Assembly: GCA_013152945.1 (NCBI GenBank)
Contig: JAADFL010000148.1
Coordinates: 1 to 18,238 of the forward strand
DNA length: 18,238 bases
Origin: Deltaproteobacteria bacterium
GTDB lineage: Bacteria > Myxococcota_A > JAADFL01
Reading direction: 5' to 3'
The position numbers were made by a program, and so were the translations under genes. The notes beneath the pieces were generated by a model, which saw only the letters and a list, made by a program, of their open reading frames with translations, made no database searches and had not been told where the DNA came from. Positions 4,316 to 18,125 of this stretch are shown in pieces. Position 1 is the first letter of the stretch, and every line of letters starts with the position of its first letter.

Positions 4316-4386
4316 GGGACAATGTTGGCGCAATTTGCTTGGTCCCGATCAACACCTTTCGGCAAGTGGAGGCGAAGAGGTGGTTA

Positions 4387-5466
4387 ATGGCTAGAATGAC
4401 TCCTGTTCCAAGGTGCATGGCGACCATGATTGGAAGCATGCCTCACAAGGATCCCGGCAATGCCTTGGACCTGGTATTCGAAAACCTGAAAGAGGCCCCG
4501 ATCTGGCCTGAATTGCCCAGACGTTCTTTCATGGAAGGTTTCGTGGCGGCTCATGTGGACGGCATGCCGGGTATTGTGATCAACAGGGAACGCGAAAAGA
4601 TTTACGTGGACCTGGAATTACCGAACTTGGCGGACCAGATGACCCGGTACTATGAAAAGGTAATGGCTGCAGAGGAAAGCGGCGACCTGTCGGGTTTCGC
4701 CATAGATGAGGAGCATGCATCCGGCCTTGCCGCTGCGCTGGCTAGACTAGAAAAAAAGCCCCTAAGATTTCCCTTTTTCAAGACCCATTGTATTGGGCCG
4801 GTGTCCATGCAACTTCAGTTGGAAGATCGGAACGAGAGGCCCGTTTACTACAGTGAAGGTTACCAGGACGTGGTTGTAAGGCAGGTGTCGCTCCAGTCAA
4901 GATGGGCGGTAAGACGTTTTCGTCCCTTTGGAGATATGATTATCGCTTTTCTTGACGAGCCTGCCCTGGCGGCATTCGGGTCATCCGCATATTTGGGGGT
5001 TATGAAGGAAGATGTTGTGGAAAGATTCTCATCCGCGGTGTCAGCGGTTCACCTGGAGGGTGCTGTTGCAGGCGTACACGTTTGCGGCAACACTGATTGG
5101 GCCATGATGTTGGATACCGGTGTGGATATAATAAATTATGACGCTTATGCCTATTCGGAAAGCATACTCGTGTACGCCGGACATGTGCGGCGATTCATGG
5201 AAGACGGCGGTGTGCTGGCCTGGGGAATCGTGCCGACCTCCGTGGACATCAGGACGGAAAACGGCGAAACATTGTCGAAGAAACTCAAAGGCCTTATGTC
5301 CGAATTATGCTCGAAAGGATCGATGGACATGGAACTCGTGCTCCGGCAGTCAATGGTTACGCCTTCTTGTGGAATGGGCACCATGAGTGTAGAGGATACC
5401 AAAAGAGTGGTGGAGACTCTCGTGGATTTGGCTGAAAGAATGCAGAAGCTTGCCAGACCGGCTTAA
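4387..5466 (+). CDS. MetE-core / UROD-like zinc methyltransferase family protein
   Basis: The start is the ATG at 4387 (359 residues), with GGAGG at 4368-4372 and GAGG at 4377-4380 just upstream; an in-frame TTG at 4339 has no such site. The protein has marks of the cobalamin-independent methionine synthase catalytic barrel: MIGSMPHKDP near the N-terminus, LDEPAL with Glu191, HVC with His231 and Cys233, and PSCGMG with Cys328. His-x-Cys plus the distant Cys are the usual zinc ligands that activate a thiol substrate. At 359 residues it corresponds to the C-terminal half of MetE only, without the N-terminal folate-binding half, like archaeal core MetE enzymes and many uncharacterised UROD/MetE-like proteins. 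The methyl donor and acceptor cannot be read from sequence. It ends in a convergent 4-base overlap with the next gene. Confidence 0.75.
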   Translation: MARMTPVPRCMATMIGSMPHKDPGNALDLVFENLKEAPIWPELPRRSFMEGFVAAHVDGMPGIVINREREKIYVDLELPNLADQMTRYYEKVMAAEESGDLSGFAIDEEHASGLAAALARLEKKPLRFPFFKTHCIGPVSMQLQLEDRNERPVYYSEGYQDVVVRQVSLQSRWAVRRFRPFGDMIIAFLDEPALAAFGSSAYLGVMKEDVVERFSSAVSAVHLEGAVAGVHVCGNTDWAMMLDTGVDIINYDAYAYSESILVYAGHVRRFMEDGGVLAWGIVPTSVDIRTENGETLSKKLKGLMSELCSKGSMDMELVLRQSMVTPSCGMGTMSVEDTKRVVETLVDLAERMQKLARPA

Positions 5467-6533
5467 AGCCCAAGGCGTCCGGCCACGTCTTCGTAATCGG
5501 GATCCATGACATAGATTTTCTCCAGGTCCTTTCGGGCCCGGCCTTTCTGCCCCAACTCCTGTAATACAAGGGATCGTTCATAGAACAGGGCCTTACGTAG
5601 TTCGTCGGATCTGCCTTTTTTTCGTCGAAGTGCAATTGTAAGAATTTCCCTGCTTGCATCCATTAGGCCCAAATGTCTCAAGGCCCTTGCCTTGTACAAC
5701 AGCAATGCGGTGTGAACCGGTGATTCGTTTTCTACATCCTGAGTGATCTTTACAATCCGTGTACAGGCATCTTTCAGGGTGCCTGGCCGGCTTCCTGCCA
5801 TGTCGAGGAGAAGCTCTGAAAAGGACAGCATTACGACAACATCGGCAGGCTCGATATCGATCAGCCTATCGAGACTTAAGACGGCTTTATCCCATTGTTC
5901 CATGTGCTGATACGCCTCAACCAGGCCAAGCAGGACGCCCCTGACATGTGGTCCCAAGCAAGCAGAGATTTCGTCGGTGATGTGAATATTGAACGTGGCG
6001 GATATGCCGTACTTGGACAGGTATCGGCCAAGCTCTTCGTGATTTTCCATGGCCTTTTCCAGGTATGTGACGGCTTGTTCCGGGTGATTGCTCTTCAATG
6101 AAAGGAAGCCTGCCAGGTAAGCTCCATCAACCAGGTGAGTCACTTGTTCGAGATGTTCCAGAGCCTCTTCTTCCTTGCCAAGGTATAGATCGCGACAGGC
6201 TTCCACCAGGTCCTGCTCTTCTTTCGGCGTTACCAGGCGCTTGAAGAATCCAAGGGTAAGTTTTTTTTCGGGGCTGACATAGCCTGCCGGGTAAGCCGCC
6301 CGGGTGTTCCTTTTACTCCTGCTGCGGCGTCTTGATGCATTTTTTCCTTTCGTACTTACGTTGGTGGTATAGAAGAGACCTGTGCCGGGTATTCCGAAGG
6401 TGGTGCGTTGTCCTCTTGGCCCGATGGTGAACTTGGCCCCACGTGGTCCGAACGACAGGGAGCCGCCGGACTTGCTAAGGTTCAATGTAATGCCGGGCGC
6501 AAGCTTTATGCGTTTAAAGAAGCGAAATGACAT
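5463..6533 (-). CDS. DUF4236 domain plus TPR repeat protein
   Basis: The 356-residue protein begins with a DUF4236 domain (about residues 1-57: MSFRFFKRIKLAPGITLNLS, then SGGSLSFGPRGAKFTIGPRG and TTFGIPGTGLFYTT), a short Gly-rich beta domain of unknown function. A basic stretch (RRRSRSKR) follows, and the remaining ~260 residues are helical TPR-type repeats, for example VEACRDLYLGKEEEALEHLE, KAVLSLDRLIDIEPADVV and GRARKDLEKIYVMDPDYEDV. No signal peptide or membrane segment is seen. The start ATG (complement of 6531-6533) is supported by GGAGGTG (complement of 6538-6544). The gene is transcribed towards the MetE-like gene; both stop codons lie in one TTAA. A scaffold or protein-protein interaction role is plausible but not shown. 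Confidence 0.8.
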   Translation of the reverse strand: MSFRFFKRIKLAPGITLNLSKSGGSLSFGPRGAKFTIGPRGQRTTFGIPGTGLFYTTNVSTKGKNASRRRSRSKRNTRAAYPAGYVSPEKKLTLGFFKRLVTPKEEQDLVEACRDLYLGKEEEALEHLEQVTHLVDGAYLAGFLSLKSNHPEQAVTYLEKAMENHEELGRYLSKYGISATFNIHITDEISACLGPHVRGVLLGLVEAYQHMEQWDKAVLSLDRLIDIEPADVVVMLSFSELLLDMAGSRPGTLKDACTRIVKITQDVENESPVHTALLLYKARALRHLGLMDASREILTIALRRKKGRSDELRKALFYERSLVLQELGQKGRARKDLEKIYVMDPDYEDVAGRLGL

Positions 6534-6857
6534 TTTGCACCTCCGATGACCTTTGTCGTTACTTTGCCAACATCAGAGTAAAATTGTCTAGAGTAAAGTG
6601 AGTATATAACGGAAGGTCTGAAAAATTACTTGATCGAGTCGGATCTATGTGTTTGTTTCCGGTTGTGGAAGCAGGGAATTTCGATTTCATGATAGACCTT
6701 GCCAAATTAATATAGCTTCGTAATAGGTGGAGATGGGCTGCGTGGGGATATTACATTTCGACCTTTTTTGTAGCCTTTCTGTTAATAATCATGGGATCCG
6801 CATTCCATATCCGAGTTTTTTAAGAGACTGGCAAAACAGATGTCGGAGGATTTTTTA
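6534..6857. other. Divergent intergenic region, likely promoter region, no gene
   Basis: This ~324-base spacer separates the minus-strand DUF4236 gene from the plus-strand Fe-S/ThDP operon, so promoters for both must lie here or the operon must be served from within it. An 8-base direct repeat AGAGTAAA occurs at 6575-6582 and 6590-6597 (15-base period). TATATA at 6603-6608 is a possible -10 element on either strand, but no good partner -35 was found. The rest shows nothing I can name. Confidence 0.4.
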
Positions 6858-6860
6858 ATG
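6844..6860 (+). promoter_or_regulatory. Ribosome-binding site deciding the ThDP-fusion start
   Basis: CGGAGGA at 6844-6850 lies seven bases before an ATG at 6858. The earlier in-frame ATG at 6840 would place this site inside the coding region and has no Shine-Dalgarno sequence of its own, so 6858 is preferred. Confidence 0.75.
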
Positions 6861-9452
6861 GATGACAAACCCGTTATTACTTCGAAGACCAACGGTCCTC
6901 TCACTGTAAAGGATCTCGAGCATTTCCAAAATTCGAGGGGTGAGAACATAGAGGTAAAGCCGGTCATGGCACTATGCAGGTGCGGGGCATCGAAGAGAAA
7001 GCCCTTTTGTGACGGAAGCCATGCGCGAATCGGGTTTGACGACAAAAAGTCGACGGAAAGAGTTGATGACAGGCTGGACACGTATCAGGGTGAAAAGATC
7101 ATTATATATGACAACCGTGGAGTTTGCTCCCATGCGGGATATTGCACGGCCAACCTGCCTGAAGTTTTCCATATGGGCACAGAACCATGGATCGATCCAA
7201 ACGGTGCCGATCCTGCGGAGTTACGCAGGGTCATAGACATGTGTCCTTCCGGGGCTCTCGCCTATGCCCGGGATGGCCGGGGGACGGGCGAGGAAACAGA
7301 AGAGCCCGGGATCCAGGTTTCCCTTAACGGTCCTTACCTGGTAAAGGGCGGTGTGGAACTCGCTGGAGCTGACCTCGGCCAGGGCGTGCCAAAGGACCAC
7401 TATACACTGTGCAGGTGCGGCAAGTCGGGCAACAAACCCAGATGCGATGGATCCCATTGGTACGCAGGCTTCCAGGACGATGAGGCCCTCACCATCTCGG
7501 CCGCCAACAGGACCGGCAAGGCGGAGCCGAAACGGTTCAAGGTCGCCGAGCCCGGTGCACTTGAAGAGGGCGGCATGCTATCCATCGAGGTCGCGAACAG
7601 GCAGATGGTAATATCCAGGATCGACGGTAAGTACTATGCTGTCCAGGGCGTGTGCCCACACCAAGGCGGCCCCCTTGGGCAGGGCAGGATAGACAACAAG
7701 GTCTTGAGGTGTCCCTGGCATGGCCATCCATTCGATCCCAGGACCGGTAAATCCTTGGCGGATGACCCGGACCTGGAGGTGTACACCGTGCAGGAGCGCG
7801 ACGACGGCGTGTACATCGAAGTGGACGAACCGGATAAGCCCGGCTGGACGGTTGGGCACCTGATCGCCGAGACCATGGTCAACTGGGGAATTACCCATGT
7901 GTTCGGAATGGTGGGTCACTCAAATCTGGGCCTTGCAGAAGGAATCCGCGTTCAGGTCGAGAAGAATAAGCTCAATTACATTGGAGTTCGGCACGAAGGT
8001 ACAGCCGCCTTTGCCTGCTCGGCTTTCGCCAAGGTCTCGGGCGGAATTGCGGCCTGCCTGACCATTGCAGGACCAGGGGCCACAAACCTGCTTACCGGGC
8101 TCTGGGATGCAAAAATGGATCGTGCGCCTGTGTTGGCGTTAACAGGCCAGATCGATACGCATTTCATCGGGCCGGGAGCATTCCAGGAGGTGGACTTGCG
8201 ATCCGCCTTCGCTTCGGTTGCTGATTTCTCCAAGACGGTGCTTCCAGGCTCTGACCATGCAGAACTGGTTTCCTTGGCCTTGAAACATGCCATAGTGAAC
8301 CGTGACGTGGCTCACCTGATAGTGCCCGATGATGTCCAGGGCCAGGACGCGGGAATCCAGGCCCCGGGGCGCCCCGAGGGAAGGCTTGCGGAAACGGCTA
8401 TCAAGCCTCCGGACCAGTCCGTGGACATGGCAATGTACAGGATAAACAGGGCAAAACGACCGGTGGTCATAGTTGGGTACGGGGCAAGAAACGCAATGGA
8501 TCGAATCATGGAACTCGCAGGGCGGCTCAATGCGCCCGTGCTCACCACGTTTAAGGCAAAGGGGCAGATTCCGGACCATCATCCTCTTGCCTGCGGAGTC
8601 CTGGGAAAGAGCGGTACGCCCGTGTCGAGCTGGTTCATGAACAACTCGGACCTGCTCATCGTATTCGGCGCGTCATTTTCCAGGCATACGGGAATCGACA
8701 AGAACAAGCCCATTGTCCAGGTGGACTTCGATCGCATGGCCCTCGGCCGATTCCATCCGGTGCACTCGCCCATCTGGGGCGACGTAGGAGAGACCGTATC
8801 CGCAATATTGGAGAGGTTGCCCGCAAGTGCGGGAGGCGTCGATTGCAGGAACGAGATTGCAGAACGGTGGAGTATGTGGCGCACCGAAAAAACAAGGAGG
8901 GCGGCCATGACCGGGGACAATGGATTGAACTCGGCACTGGTTATGGAAGCGCTCTCCCGCATTGCCCCCAAGAGAGCATTGTTCTGCGTGGACGTAGGCA
9001 ACAACACTTACTCTTTCGGGCGGTATTTCGAGTGCGACGACAACAGGGTGATAATGTGCGGATACCTCGGTTCCATAGGATTTGCATTGCCTGCGGCAAT
9101 TGGCGCGAGCCAGGCGGGTTCCGGGCGTCCCATTGTGGCCCTGGGTGGTGACGGCGGTTTCGGTCAGTACATGGGAGATTTCAGCACGGCAGTCCGTCAC
9201 AACCTGGACATCACCAGCATAGTCCTGAACAACGGCGAACTCGGGAAGATATCACAAGAGCAGCGCGATGCAGTGCTGCCGGTCTGGCAGACCGGGCTCA
9301 CGAATCCCGGGTTCGCAGAATTTGCAAGGGACTGCGGTGGATTCGGGGTGCGAGTGGATTCAGGAAAAGATCTCGGCGATGCATTGAGCAAGGCCTTTGC
9401 ATACAAGGGGCCTTCACTCGTGGAGATAATAACGGATCCGATATTGACCTGA
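6858..9452 (+). CDS. CDGSH-4Fe4S-CDGSH-Rieske-thiamine diphosphate enzyme fusion
   Basis: This 864-residue protein joins five modules in one intact frame. CDGSH zinc-finger-like domain 1 has CRCGASKRKPFCDGSH (Cys40, Cys42, Cys51, His55). A divergent 4Fe-4S mono-cluster domain (YjdI/Fer4_19 type) has Cys90, Cys96 and CPSGAL with Cys129. CDGSH 2 has CRCGKSGNKPRCDGSH (Cys185, Cys187, Cys196, His200). A Rieske domain has CPHQGGPL (Cys266, His268) and CPWHGHPFD (Cys285, His288). From about 335 to the end lies a full ThDP enzyme of the pyruvate oxidase/acetolactate synthase superfamily, with catalytic Glu380 in RHEGTAAF and the ThDP/Mg motif GDGG (764-767) ending in NN (791-792). All cluster ligands are present. 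It is probably a cytosolic 2-oxoacid decarboxylating oxidoreductase passing electrons to its own clusters; substrate and acceptor are unknown. It leads the operon with the ergothioneine-type genes. Confidence 0.88.
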   Translation: MDDKPVITSKTNGPLTVKDLEHFQNSRGENIEVKPVMALCRCGASKRKPFCDGSHARIGFDDKKSTERVDDRLDTYQGEKIIIYDNRGVCSHAGYCTANLPEVFHMGTEPWIDPNGADPAELRRVIDMCPSGALAYARDGRGTGEETEEPGIQVSLNGPYLVKGGVELAGADLGQGVPKDHYTLCRCGKSGNKPRCDGSHWYAGFQDDEALTISAANRTGKAEPKRFKVAEPGALEEGGMLSIEVANRQMVISRIDGKYYAVQGVCPHQGGPLGQGRIDNKVLRCPWHGHPFDPRTGKSLADDPDLEVYTVQERDDGVYIEVDEPDKPGWTVGHLIAETMVNWGITHVFGMVGHSNLGLAEGIRVQVEKNKLNYIGVRHEGTAAFACSAFAKVSGGIAACLTIAGPGATNLLTGLWDAKMDRAPVLALTGQIDTHFIGPGAFQEVDLRSAFASVADFSKTVLPGSDHAELVSLALKHAIVNRDVAHLIVPDDVQGQDAGIQAPGRPEGRLAETAIKPPDQSVDMAMYRINRAKRPVVIVGYGARNAMDRIMELAGRLNAPVLTTFKAKGQIPDHHPLACGVLGKSGTPVSSWFMNNSDLLIVFGASFSRHTGIDKNKPIVQVDFDRMALGRFHPVHSPIWGDVGETVSAILERLPASAGGVDCRNEIAERWSMWRTEKTRRAAMTGDNGLNSALVMEALSRIAPKRALFCVDVGNNTYSFGRYFECDDNRVIMCGYLGSIGFALPAAIGASQAGSGRPIVALGGDGGFGQYMGDFSTAVRHNLDITSIVLNNGELGKISQEQRDAVLPVWQTGLTNPGFAEFARDCGGFGVRVDSGKDLGDALSKAFAYKGPSLVEIITDPILT

Positions 9453-9521: not shown

Positions 9522-10802
9522 ATGGTGACCGAGATATCGACCGAGAGGCTTGCGGAAGTTATAGGTGACGGGCGTTACAGGATAATCGATGCCAGGCGTA
9601 TCGATGCGTACAACGGTTGGTGCATGAAAGGTGAGGCACGCGGGGGGCACATAAGGGGAGCAAAGTCCATTCCTGCAGCCTGGTCACAACAGGAGGATTG
9701 GCCACAGATAATCCGTTCCAAGGGAATAACTTCGGTCGAACACATAGTCGTCTATGGGTACACCGACGACGAGATACAAGCTGTGGCGGACAGGTTCTCG
9801 GCTGAAGGCTACCCGGAAGTCGGTGTGTACACCGGGTTTGTGGATGAGTGGTGCGCGAATTCCGATTTACCCATGGAGAGGCTCGAAAATTATCACAAGC
9901 TCGTGTACCCAGAGTGGGTGGAGAAGCTCGTCTCGGGCAAGAAGCCGCCCGGGTTCAGTGGAGACAAGTTCGCAATATGTCACTGCCACTACAGGAACAG
10001 AGCCGACTATGACCTGGGACACATACCGGGAGCCGTCGCAGTGGACACCCTGGAGTTGGAATCGCCCGGCACGTGGAACCGCAGGTCTCCCGAAGAACTC
10101 ATGAAGGCGCTGACCAAAATGGGGATCACCGCGGACACTACAGTGGTGGTGTACGGCAGGTTCTCCTTCCCGAGAAACGAGGATCCCCATCCGGGCAGCA
10201 GTGCGGGGCACCTGGGGGCGTTCCGCTGCGCTGTTATTATGATATACGCCGGCGTGAAGGATGTGCGCATATTAAACGGGGGCATAGCCTCCTGGGGAGA
10301 GCGGGGATATGCCCTGTCCAGGGAAGAAAACAGGCTGGAACCTGTCGATGACTTCGGGGTGGAGGCGCCGGCAAGGCCGGAAATATTCATCGACACACCC
10401 GAAGCCAGGCAGGTTCTCGCATCACCCGGCGACAACCTGATAAGTGTGCGAAGCTGGAACGAGTTCGTGGGCAAGGTCAGCGGGTACAACTACATTCTCA
10501 AGAAGGGGAGGATACCGGGAGCCGTGTTCGGAAATTGCGGCAGCGATGCGTACCACATGGAGAACTACAGGAACATGGATCTCACCACCAGGGAATACCA
10601 CGAGGTCGAGGACATGTGGCGCGGGATAGGAATCACTCCAGACAGGTTCAATGCCTTCTATTGCGGCACCGGATGGCGCGCCAGCGAGGCATTCATGAAT
10701 GCTTACCTGATGGGGTGGAAGAATATCGCCGTGTACGACGGCGGTTGGTTCGAGTGGTCGAACGATCCGGGTAACCCGATCGAAAAGGGTGAGCCGAAAT
10801 GA
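9522..10802 (+). CDS. eanB: Triple-rhodanese sulfurtransferase, EanB-like (anaerobic ergothioneine synthase)
   Basis: The 426-residue protein has three rhodanese-type domains: about 5-115, 145-265 and 285-420. The loops that would hold the sulfur-carrying cysteine lack it in the first (VVYGYTDDE) and second (VVYGRFSFP). The third has Cys381 in FYCGTGWRAS. Other notable cysteines are Cys153/Cys155 (ICHCHY) and Cys339 (GNCGSD). This layout, with only the last domain active, is that of EanB of green sulfur bacteria, which inserts sulfur from polysulfide into hercynine to give ergothioneine without oxygen; its catalytic cysteine, as I recall Cys412, fits Cys381 with a constant offset of 31. The following gene is the matching histidine methyltransferase, overlapping by four bases, which strengthens the call considerably. 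Ribosome-binding site AGGAGA at 9511-9516. Alternative: an ordinary thiosulfate/mercaptopyruvate sulfurtransferase, less likely. Confidence 0.78.
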   Translation: MVTEISTERLAEVIGDGRYRIIDARRIDAYNGWCMKGEARGGHIRGAKSIPAAWSQQEDWPQIIRSKGITSVEHIVVYGYTDDEIQAVADRFSAEGYPEVGVYTGFVDEWCANSDLPMERLENYHKLVYPEWVEKLVSGKKPPGFSGDKFAICHCHYRNRADYDLGHIPGAVAVDTLELESPGTWNRRSPEELMKALTKMGITADTTVVVYGRFSFPRNEDPHPGSSAGHLGAFRCAVIMIYAGVKDVRILNGGIASWGERGYALSREENRLEPVDDFGVEAPARPEIFIDTPEARQVLASPGDNLISVRSWNEFVGKVSGYNYILKKGRIPGAVFGNCGSDAYHMENYRNMDLTTREYHEVEDMWRGIGITPDRFNAFYCGTGWRASEAFMNAYLMGWKNIAVYDGGWFEWSNDPGNPIEKGEPK

Positions 10803-11824
10803 TCTGCAACGGAGATGCCGGAGGAAACGGCTCGAACGTGTATGGGGATGAGGGGCTGCAGCACATGTATTCCAAGGGCGGGCTTGATTCCGCTGTTTTC
10901 GGTGAGAGAGCTGAGGAAATACTGGCCGGTCTCGAGTCGCGGAGAAAGTACATACCCAGTAAATTCTTCTACGACGCCAGGGGCTCGAAGCTGTTTGAGG
11001 AAATAACCAGGCTCGACGAGTACTATCCGAGCAGGACCGAGAAGCGGATAATGCGCGATAATGCCCCCGAAATCGTTAATGAGTTTGAAGGTGCAACCAT
11101 TGTAGAGATTGGAAGCGGTGATTGCTCAAAGATATCCATCCTCCTGGACGCCATGTCCCCCGAGGCGCGACACAGCATCGTGTACGTACCCGTGGACGTC
11201 AGCCCCAGCGCCATACAAGAGTCGAGGTGCAGGCTGCGGGATTCTTTCGGAGTTGTGCAGGTAGATGAATTGGTGGCCGATTTCACCGGGAATATCGACG
11301 CATTGTCCAAATACCACAATAAGATCTTGTGCTTTTTCGGCAGCACCATAGGCAACCTCGATCGCGAGCAATCTATTGGATTTGTAAGAAAAATTGGAAA
11401 GCTTATGGAATGCGGCGAACGCTTCCTGCTGGGTCTCGACATGGTCAAGGAACGTGAGGTACTGGAGCGAGCTTACAACGACAACAAGGGCGTCACCGCC
11501 GAGTTCAATAGGAATATACTCAAAGTAGCCAACCGTATAGCAGGTACTGACTTTATTCCGGATATGTTCGAGCACGTGGCCTTTTACAACCGGAAGGCGA
11601 ACAGGATAGAGATGTACCTTGAAGCCAGGGGCACAACAGAAGTCCACACACCGTTGCTAAAACAGGAATTGCTTATAAAAGAGGGAGAAAGGATCCACAC
11701 GGAGAACTCGCATAAGTTCACATTGGAGCACGTCTCCTTGTTTGCAGAGGCAGGCCACCTCGATGTCGAGAGAGTTTTCAACGATTCAAGGCACTGGTTC
11801 AGCATAGTTGAATATGTGAAATAA
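10799..11824 (+). CDS. egtD: L-histidine N-alpha-methyltransferase (EgtD/EanA)
   Basis: The 341-residue protein is a clear EgtD-family enzyme, using three S-adenosylmethionines to turn histidine into hercynine, the first step to ergothioneine. The family block KFFYDARGSKLFEEIT (55-70) and EYYPSRTE (74-81) are present, with SAM motif EIGSGDCSK (103-111). Residues known to bind histidine in Mycobacterium EgtD have counterparts at a constant offset of 20: Asn186 (GSTIGN), Tyr226 (RAYND), Met272, Glu302 and Ser304 (TENSHKF), corresponding to Asn166, Tyr206, Met252, Glu282 and Ser284. Histidine specificity is therefore expected. Its ATG overlaps the upstream stop as ATGA, indicating translational coupling. 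No EgtB (oxygen-dependent sulfoxide synthase) or EgtE is nearby, which fits the anaerobic EanA/EanB route. Confidence 0.9.
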   Translation: MICNGDAGGNGSNVYGDEGLQHMYSKGGLDSAVFGERAEEILAGLESRRKYIPSKFFYDARGSKLFEEITRLDEYYPSRTEKRIMRDNAPEIVNEFEGATIVEIGSGDCSKISILLDAMSPEARHSIVYVPVDVSPSAIQESRCRLRDSFGVVQVDELVADFTGNIDALSKYHNKILCFFGSTIGNLDREQSIGFVRKIGKLMECGERFLLGLDMVKEREVLERAYNDNKGVTAEFNRNILKVANRIAGTDFIPDMFEHVAFYNRKANRIEMYLEARGTTEVHTPLLKQELLIKEGERIHTENSHKFTLEHVSLFAEAGHLDVERVFNDSRHWFSIVEYVK

Positions 11825-16845: not shown

Positions 16846-16928
16846 CAAAGGAATTACCCGATTGAATTCAACGAAAATTCCGAATATTGTTCCTGCCTGA
16901 TCGAAGCGGCAGCAATGGAGGCACGACA

Positions 16929-18125
16929 ATGGAGACTGCAGGTAGTGATATAGTATCGAGCAGCCGGGAATGCCAGCGGAATTGGAGGATTGCCTTCCTG
17001 GTGTTCTGCACCATGGGATTGTGCTTAAGTGCTGACTTGGCCAGGTTGCATTTGAAGGTGAACACTGATCCCGCCTATCATTCTTATTGTGCAATGAGCG
17101 AGAGGGTAAATTGCGAGACAGTTGCATCCAGCAGCTATTCCGTGTTCATGGGATTGCCCCTGGCTGTATGGGGACTGATCGGATATCTTGGTTTGGGCTG
17201 TCTCGCAGCCTGGGGACTTTCGAGGAAGAGACCGACCCAGGTTTGGCCGTTCGGCATGTTGGCCGTAATATCGGCCGTGTTCTCTTTGCTTGGGATAGTC
17301 CTGTTTTTCCTGTCCCATCTCGTCATAGGATCGATTTGCATCATTTGTACAGGCACGTACATCGTAAACTTCGCGTTGCTTTTTATTGCAATCATGGATC
17401 TTCGTTCAATGAAGATTGGCTTGGTGAAGGCAATCAGGGCTGATATTGGAACTTTTTTTTCTTCGCCGAAAAAACCGCTTTTTTTTGTAGGATCTATTGT
17501 AGCACTGTCGGTGATCCTGCTCATAGCCGTACCTCCTTACTGGAAAGTTGAACTCGACAAGGGCCCGGGTGGGCTCAAAGTAGGCGTTACCAAAGAAGGC
17601 AAGCATTGGATAGGCGCCGTCGATCCAAAACTGGTTATTATCGAGTTCAGCGATTACCAGTGCCCCCATTGCAAGCGGGGACATGCAGAGATGAGGGAAT
17701 TGTTGGAAAAATATCCAGGCAAGCTTCGCCTGGTTCACAGGAATTATCCATTGGATCACCATTGCAATCCGGTGATAGGAAGGCCCTTCCATCCATATTC
17801 ATGTCTTTACGCAAGATTGGCCTTTTGCGCAGGCAGGCAGAAAAAATTTTGGGAGGCGAATGATTATCTTTTCTCCAAGGGAATAAGGAGCAACCCTGTA
17901 TCGGTCGGCGAGCTGGCCAGGGCAATTGGCCTGGATGAAAACAAACTTGGTGAATGCGAACGCAGCGAGGAAGCGGCGAACGACGTTGCAGAGGATATGA
18001 AAGCAGGAAGGAATGCCAATGTCAGAGGCACCCCGACTTTTGTCGTAAATGGAAGGAGTTACCCGGGCCGGATACCGGCCTATGTTTTCACTCCCGTACT
18101 TGGACAGGACTTCGACAAGAAATAA
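16929..18125 (+). CDS. VKOR-DsbA fusion, disulfide bond forming enzyme
   Basis: The start is the ATG at 16929 (398 residues), with GGAGG at 16917-16921; an earlier in-frame start at 16887 lacks a site. The N-terminal ~160 residues form a four-helix vitamin K epoxide reductase domain with loop cysteines Cys54 and Cys62 (YCAMSERVNC), the conserved SSYSVFMGLPLAVWG segment and the quinone-side CIIC motif (Cys137, Cys140). A fifth membrane helix (about 183-204) leads to a periplasmic thioredoxin-fold DsbA-like domain with CPHC (Cys245, Cys248) and cis-proline loop RGTPTF (Pro369). The fused enzyme should pass electrons from folding proteins through CPHC to VKOR and then quinone, replacing separate DsbA and DsbB. 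It follows the exported-protein gene by 83 bases. VKOR with a thioredoxin-fold partner is a known arrangement in deltaproteobacteria, actinobacteria and cyanobacteria. Confidence 0.92.
   Translation: METAGSDIVSSSRECQRNWRIAFLVFCTMGLCLSADLARLHLKVNTDPAYHSYCAMSERVNCETVASSSYSVFMGLPLAVWGLIGYLGLGCLAAWGLSRKRPTQVWPFGMLAVISAVFSLLGIVLFFLSHLVIGSICIICTGTYIVNFALLFIAIMDLRSMKIGLVKAIRADIGTFFSSPKKPLFFVGSIVALSVILLIAVPPYWKVELDKGPGGLKVGVTKEGKHWIGAVDPKLVIIEFSDYQCPHCKRGHAEMRELLEKYPGKLRLVHRNYPLDHHCNPVIGRPFHPYSCLYARLAFCAGRQKKFWEANDYLFSKGIRSNPVSVGELARAIGLDENKLGECERSEEAANDVAEDMKAGRNANVRGTPTFVVNGRSYPGRIPAYVFTPVLGQDFDKK

Follow-up and report, generated by a model that had tools for sequence, protein, structure and literature searches.

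The components of the protein described here have counterparts among known systems. The CISD proteins of type 7, subtype CDC, are stand-alone proteins with the order CDGSH-DUF1271/Fer4_19-CDGSH (Lin et al. 2011, PMC3174974), and a later survey recorded CDGSH domains with Fer4_19 and, separately, with Rieske domains (PMC5859297). In type 5 CISD proteins, a CDGSH domain precedes a glutamate synthase FMN domain (PMC3174974), so that here, too, an Fe-S domain is placed ahead of a flavoenzyme, but there is no thiamine diphosphate (ThDP) enzyme, Fer4_19 or Rieske domain. On the enzyme side, the nearest described systems are the FAD pyruvate oxidases, represented by E. coli PoxB, C. glutamicum pyruvate:quinone oxidoreductase (PQO) and L. 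plantarum POX. The 2-oxoacid:ferredoxin oxidoreductases (PFOR/OFOR) also use ThDP and Fe-S clusters on 2-oxoacids, but they belong to a different protein family. Finally, proteins of ~660 aa, annotated as "thiamine pyrophosphate-binding protein", combine a Rieske domain with a ThDP enzyme, and are referred to below as the Rieske-ThDP family. In the literature within our reach, which excludes most subscription journals, we found no paper that combines a Rieske or CDGSH domain with a ThDP enzyme.

The window, i.e. the whole stretch of 18,238 nucleotides analysed here, contains a gene in which these components are joined in a single chain (Table 1). The initial annotation had described an intact frame that joins two CDGSH domains, a ferredoxin domain (Fer4_19) and a Rieske domain to a complete ThDP enzyme, and this description holds, the order being CDGSH, Fer4_19, CDGSH, Rieske, ThDP enzyme. 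Every Pfam domain scores above its curated cut-off, with E-values of 1e-30 for zf-CDGSH (two copies), 3.7e-22 for Fer4_19, 5.5e-17 for Rieske, and 1.3e-29, 2.5e-32 and 4.1e-32 for TPP_enzyme_N, M and C, respectively. Whether taken from 6840 or from 6858, the frame stays open up to the stop codon at 9450-9452; the ATG at 6858, which had been proposed as the start, is preferred because a GGAGG lies 8 nt upstream. An identical five-module order was found on separate contigs in three other genomes (loci L003, L004 and L005, at 73, 64 and 54% identity), which rules out an assembly chimera or a chance frame.

Table 1. Features of the five-module gene and its downstream neighbours, in window positions
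Feature	Positions	Strand	Basis
GGAGG Shine-Dalgarno, 8 nt 5' of ATG 6858	6845..6849	+	read from sequence
Five-module fusion gene, 864 aa	6858..9452	+	Pfam; order repeated in L003, L004, L005
First CDGSH [2Fe-2S] domain, ligands C40, C42, C51, H55	6891..7025	+	PF09360
Fer4_19 ferredoxin, C90-x2-A93-x2-C96...C129-P, probably [3Fe-4S]	7083..7271	+	PF06902; motif rule PMC6237146
Second CDGSH [2Fe-2S] domain, ligands C185, C187, C196, H200	7326..7460	+	PF09360
Rieske [2Fe-2S] domain, ligands C266, H268, C285, H288	7536..7760	+	PF00355; alignment conservation
ThDP N-terminal (PYR) domain, catalytic Glu380, F442-Q443	7848..8198	+	PF02776; alignment to PoxB, POX
ThDP middle domain, FAD-type motifs G540xGAR, TTFKAKG, GVLGxSG	8427..8804	+	PF00205; aligned to LpPOX GIGAR...AKG
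ThDP C-terminal (PP) domain, GDG + NN cofactor motif, K797, E801	8991..9428	+	PF02775
EanB-type hercynine sulfurtransferase (predicted), rhodanese repeats	9522..10802	+	E=1.2e-170 to 6ktv, full length; PF00581; L003 synteny
EanA/EgtD-type histidine N-methyltransferase (predicted)	10799..11824	+	TIGR03438 340 bits vs cut-off 290.9; PF10017

The three N-terminal domains, in which Pfam places two CDGSH domains on either side of one DUF1271/Fer4_19 domain, have the type 7 CDC order and are 38-46% identical to stand-alone CDC proteins; the fusion differs in continuing into a Rieske domain and a ThDP enzyme, a chain absent from PMC3174974. We refer to these three domains as the CDC block. The ligand sets (C-x-C...C-D-G-S/T-H) are complete in both CDGSH domains, as read directly in the window and by motif search in L003, L004 and L005. 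Full ligand sets had been claimed for all of the clusters, which is correct for the two CDGSH domains and for the Rieske domain, but not for Fer4_19, where only three cysteines (C90, C96 and C129) are present, with Ala93 in the motif. The domain had also been called a 4Fe-4S domain. Its CXXAXXC...CP motif instead fits the pattern CXXA/GXXC(X)nCP of [3Fe-4S] ferredoxins (PMC6237146), so that a [3Fe-4S] cluster is probable. The CDC block is also found in a different setting: in Pseudonocardia (locus L033, 6998-8176), it is fused to a bacterial globin, which is consistent with a portable redox or electron-transfer unit.

The ThDP core most resembles the FAD pyruvate oxidases. In a profile search, the best solved relatives were E. 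coli PoxB (E=2.5e-92) and L. plantarum POX (1.2e-81), followed by acetolactate synthase (3.4e-79), and Foldseek ranked PoxB, the C. glutamicum PQO and POX at the top. The ThDP fold, the catalytic Glu, the Phe-Gln pair, a second Glu and the FAD-type motifs are shared: in the alignment, Glu380, noted as catalytic from the start, corresponds to PoxB E50, F442-Q443 to F112-Q113 and E801 to E469. The fusion departs from these oxidases in its 25-35% identity to them, its N-terminal Rieske and CDC domains, and its C-terminus; the PoxB alignment stops near residue 528 of 572, and nothing in the fusion matches the tail past ~530 that holds the PoxB membrane anchor. A further departure is Lys797, which occupies the position of PoxB Phe465 and POX Phe479, beside the active site, and is kept in at least 90% of the Rieske-ThDP family. 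The register is secure here, since the Trp of the L. plantarum F479W entry aligns exactly with Lys797. A lysine at this position may indicate a different chemistry or substrate. The GxGAR..KG (GxGAR...AKG) motif and other FAD-type motifs of the middle domain are conserved in the family, so that FAD is probably still present, and the Fe-S clusters would then supplement the flavin rather than substitute for it. A Pfam scan found no POR/PFOR domain in the fusion, which differs from PFOR/OFOR in its FAD-type core and its Rieske and CDGSH clusters. All NCBIfam equivalog cut-offs were missed, the best match being PRK08611 (385.7 bits vs 742).

The rank of acetolactate synthase in these searches raises the alternative of a non-oxidative carboligase or decarboxylase, in which FAD would be structural and the Fe-S domains would act only as sensors of oxygen or redox state that turn the enzyme on or off. 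Acetolactate synthases and 2-hydroxyacyl-CoA lyases also score well against the fusion, acetolactate synthase binds FAD without redox use, and CDGSH clusters are labile and redox-sensing. We nevertheless regard this alternative as unlikely, though with appreciable weight. The fusion has the POX-type E801 where plant acetolactate synthase presumably has a Trp, and it reaches only 268.6 against a cut-off of 538.35 for TIGR00118. Three of the four five-module genomes (G000, the genome of the window, G188 and G189) gave no match to ketol-acid reductoisomerase (KARI), and on this ground a role as acetolactate synthase in amino-acid synthesis was rejected for these three. The L005 genome has separate TPP_N genes, one of them on the KARI-bearing contig. 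The fusion is the sole TPP_enzyme_N protein in the window's genome (94% complete) and likewise in that of L003; with neither a KARI match nor another TPP_enzyme_N protein in these two genomes, a branched-chain amino acid role is unlikely, and G000 is a probable branched-chain amino acid auxotroph, judging by its gene content. Also counting against a carboligase are the constant spacing of the Rieske domain and the recurrence of Rieske-flavoenzyme neighbours, both considered below, which favour electron transfer.

The Rieske module is held in a near-constant position relative to the ThDP enzyme. Its ligands are at least 90% conserved in a 31-row alignment, and the distance from CPWHG to FGMVGHSN is 59-62 aa in all 30 of 30 sequences, from bacteria and archaea alike, which speaks against a loose tether. 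With the membrane arm lost and the spacing fixed, the Rieske cluster is most simply read as a probable new electron exit. If the Fe-S modules were instead relics, or served in cluster storage or transfer as in mitoNEET-type CDGSH proteins, which transfer clusters, the ThDP part would act alone. The AlphaFold model assigns low confidence to the CDC-Rieske linker, as this would allow; the conservation of the Rieske ligands and spacing across bacteria and archaea, and the retention of all CDGSH and Fer4_19 motif residues in four divergent five-module proteins, make such a role very improbable. The model as a whole (pLDDT 72, pTM 0.60) is also of low confidence at residues 430-513, and its ThDP subdomains superpose poorly (rmsd ~15 A).

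The chances appear about evenly balanced that the fusion is a 2-oxoacid oxidoreductase that depends on FAD and ThDP, belongs to the pyruvate oxidase lineage and has its electron exit rewired to the Rieske domain. In such an enzyme, the ThDP core would decarboxylate a small 2-oxoacid, the resulting enamine would reduce the FAD in the middle domain, and the rigidly joined N-terminal Rieske [2Fe-2S] cluster would accept the electrons singly, in place of quinone or oxygen. Rieske ferredoxins, which take electrons from flavin reductases, offer a parallel. A CDGSH-[3Fe-4S]-CDGSH unit would have been added once before the Rieske domain in the four five-module proteins, lengthening the route towards, or from, an external partner. 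FAD binding, the substrate, the direction of electron flow, the cluster types and the partner are all things that we infer from the sequences.

The initial annotation had gone further and proposed that the Fe-S clusters are built into a ThDP enzyme that may represent a new class of 2-oxoacid oxidoreductase. This proposal is partly supported. Its core, a ThDP enzyme of the pyruvate oxidase kind that carries its own Fe-S clusters, stands, but this is not a one-off class, as it draws on a wide Rieske-ThDP family and a known CDC block. That there is a new class at all, with electrons passing from an FAD/ThDP core to Rieske, in the five-module clade on to [3Fe-4S] and two CDGSH clusters, and then to a protein partner rather than to quinone, oxygen or ferredoxin, is a more tentative proposal, to which we give somewhat less than an even chance. 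Counted against the rewired oxidoreductase is the lack of a full-length Rieske-Glu_synthase partner in the five-module genomes. Because Rieske clusters are usually high-potential, the relay between Rieske and the lower-potential CDGSH or [3Fe-4S] clusters might also run in the reverse direction.

A reversal of the entire path, with an outside donor feeding electrons through the CDC and Rieske modules to the flavin-ThDP site for a reaction such as reductive carboxylation or the reduction of a stress product, seems improbable. Rieske ferredoxins can donate to terminal enzymes, and in the CDC-globin fusion of L033, electrons would enter the haem. ThDP-dependent reductive carboxylation, however, needs a very low potential, which histidine-ligated Rieske clusters, at +100 to +400 mV (PMC6237146), cannot supply, and the active site resembles those of oxidases. 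If the oxidative reading, with the Rieske domain as exit, is true, a widespread family annotated only as "thiamine pyrophosphate-binding protein" would represent a new, internally wired form of 2-oxoacid oxidation, and CDGSH proteins would gain a concrete electron-transfer task within one chain.

The distribution of the architecture was examined with a pattern-based scan of ~85,000 species genomes, which detects close relatives only. Among the 31 related loci, three were five-module: L003 and L004, labelled Myxococcota by the tree tool, and L005, from Alphaproteobacteria. Most of the others were Rieske-ThDP genes without CDGSH, a few were partial or broken frames, and L033 had the CDC block only. 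The Rieske-ThDP proteins lack the CDC block and are otherwise close to the fusion, with ~50-57% identity over the Rieske and ThDP parts and the same spacing and active-site residues. They come from eight or more bacterial phyla, with hosts among the Woeseiaceae and other Gammaproteobacteria, Alphaproteobacteria, cyanobacteria, Planctomycetota, Verrucomicrobiota, Bacteroidota, Chloroflexota and Myxococcota. Plasmid-borne Rieske-ThDP genes in four haloarchaea and in one Mycobacteroides extend the range to archaea and Actinomycetota. In the haloarchaeal proteins (L037-L040), SDGG replaces the GDGG cofactor motif and, in some, ND replaces NN; cofactor binding may differ in these cases. The long N-terminus of one further relative (L029) was dismissed as a start-codon artefact.

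The five-module protein was found in 2 of 377 genomes of the window's phylum (its own and that of L003) and in 1 of 398 genomes of the phylum of L005 (L005's own). Another 13 Rieske-ThDP genes of the window's phylum all lack an in-frame CDGSH motif upstream. The four five-module proteins group together as a single clade (100/99) in a maximum-likelihood tree built from the Rieske-ThDP part common to all; this clade sits within the Rieske-ThDP family and adjoins the proteobacterial branch. From this single clade, it is simplest to deduce that an existing Rieske-ThDP enzyme gained the CDC block once. A viral or phage origin was rejected, as two scans of viral contigs gave no relatives. The fusion is rare but real; its architecture is a new combination of two known kinds, and only the joining of CDC with Rieske-ThDP is rare and new. 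Of greater importance, perhaps, is the broader Rieske-ThDP family.

The genes downstream of the fusion are predicted to be eanB and eanA (Table 1), a full-length EanB relative beside an EgtD-type methyltransferase, as in the anaerobic ergothioneine pathway, of which EanB and EanA are the two enzymes (PMC11767532). The pair follows the fusion gene in the same order in the window and in L003. In the window, 69 bp separate the fusion and EanB genes, which probably share an operon, and the EanB and EanA genes overlap by 4 bp; the corresponding spacings in L003 are 17 and 16 bp. We take 6ktv to be EanB; the titles of the solved EanB structures say no more than "Sulfurtransferase". A common role of the fusion and the ergothioneine genes in redox protection is possible. 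The fusion enzyme does not require this link, since no EanB relative was found in the genomes of L004 and L005.

A different neighbourhood surrounds the three-module loci, those of Rieske-ThDP genes, where 12 loci have a Rieske-Glu_synthase (FMN) fusion, 12 a CPA1-type antiporter and 9 DUF5996, and where several have a Rieske-ferric-reductase membrane protein nearby. The proximity of Rieske-ThDP genes to those of the Rieske-flavoenzyme, whose Rieske domain is likewise N-terminal, and in part to those of the ferric-reductase protein suggests a shared Rieske electron circuit. Full or near-full relatives of Rieske-Glu_synthase were present in 9 of the 10 three-module genomes tested (one split over two frames). 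In the five-module genomes, a full-length relative was found in none of the four, with only partial Glu_synthase matches without Rieske in G000 and G190, and a link of the five-module gene to the Rieske-Glu_synthase operon was rejected, with no recurring neighbour family near those genes. Clusters of CPA1 antiporter, Rieske-Glu_synthase (FMN), DUF5996 and Rieske-ThDP genes can be seen in L006 (3228-8983), L007, L010, L031 and others, in some cases with an ECF sigma factor gene nearby. The ferric-reductase-like membrane proteins have a C-terminal Rieske domain and are encoded in L016 (3408-4535), L018 (11374-12480), L022, L023, L026 and L030, followed in most cases by the gene for an unannotated protein of ~255 aa.

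Three other genes of the window are recorded here as minor observations. The gene at 4339-5466 encodes a protein of 375 aa with no Pfam or NCBIfam match, which we take, on impression only, to resemble cobalamin-independent methionine synthase or a UroD-type protein. It is followed at 5463-6533 by a gene encoding a DUF4236 domain and then tetratricopeptide repeats. At 16887-18125, VKOR is fused to a DsbA/thioredoxin-like domain, placing a disulfide-forming pair in one protein.
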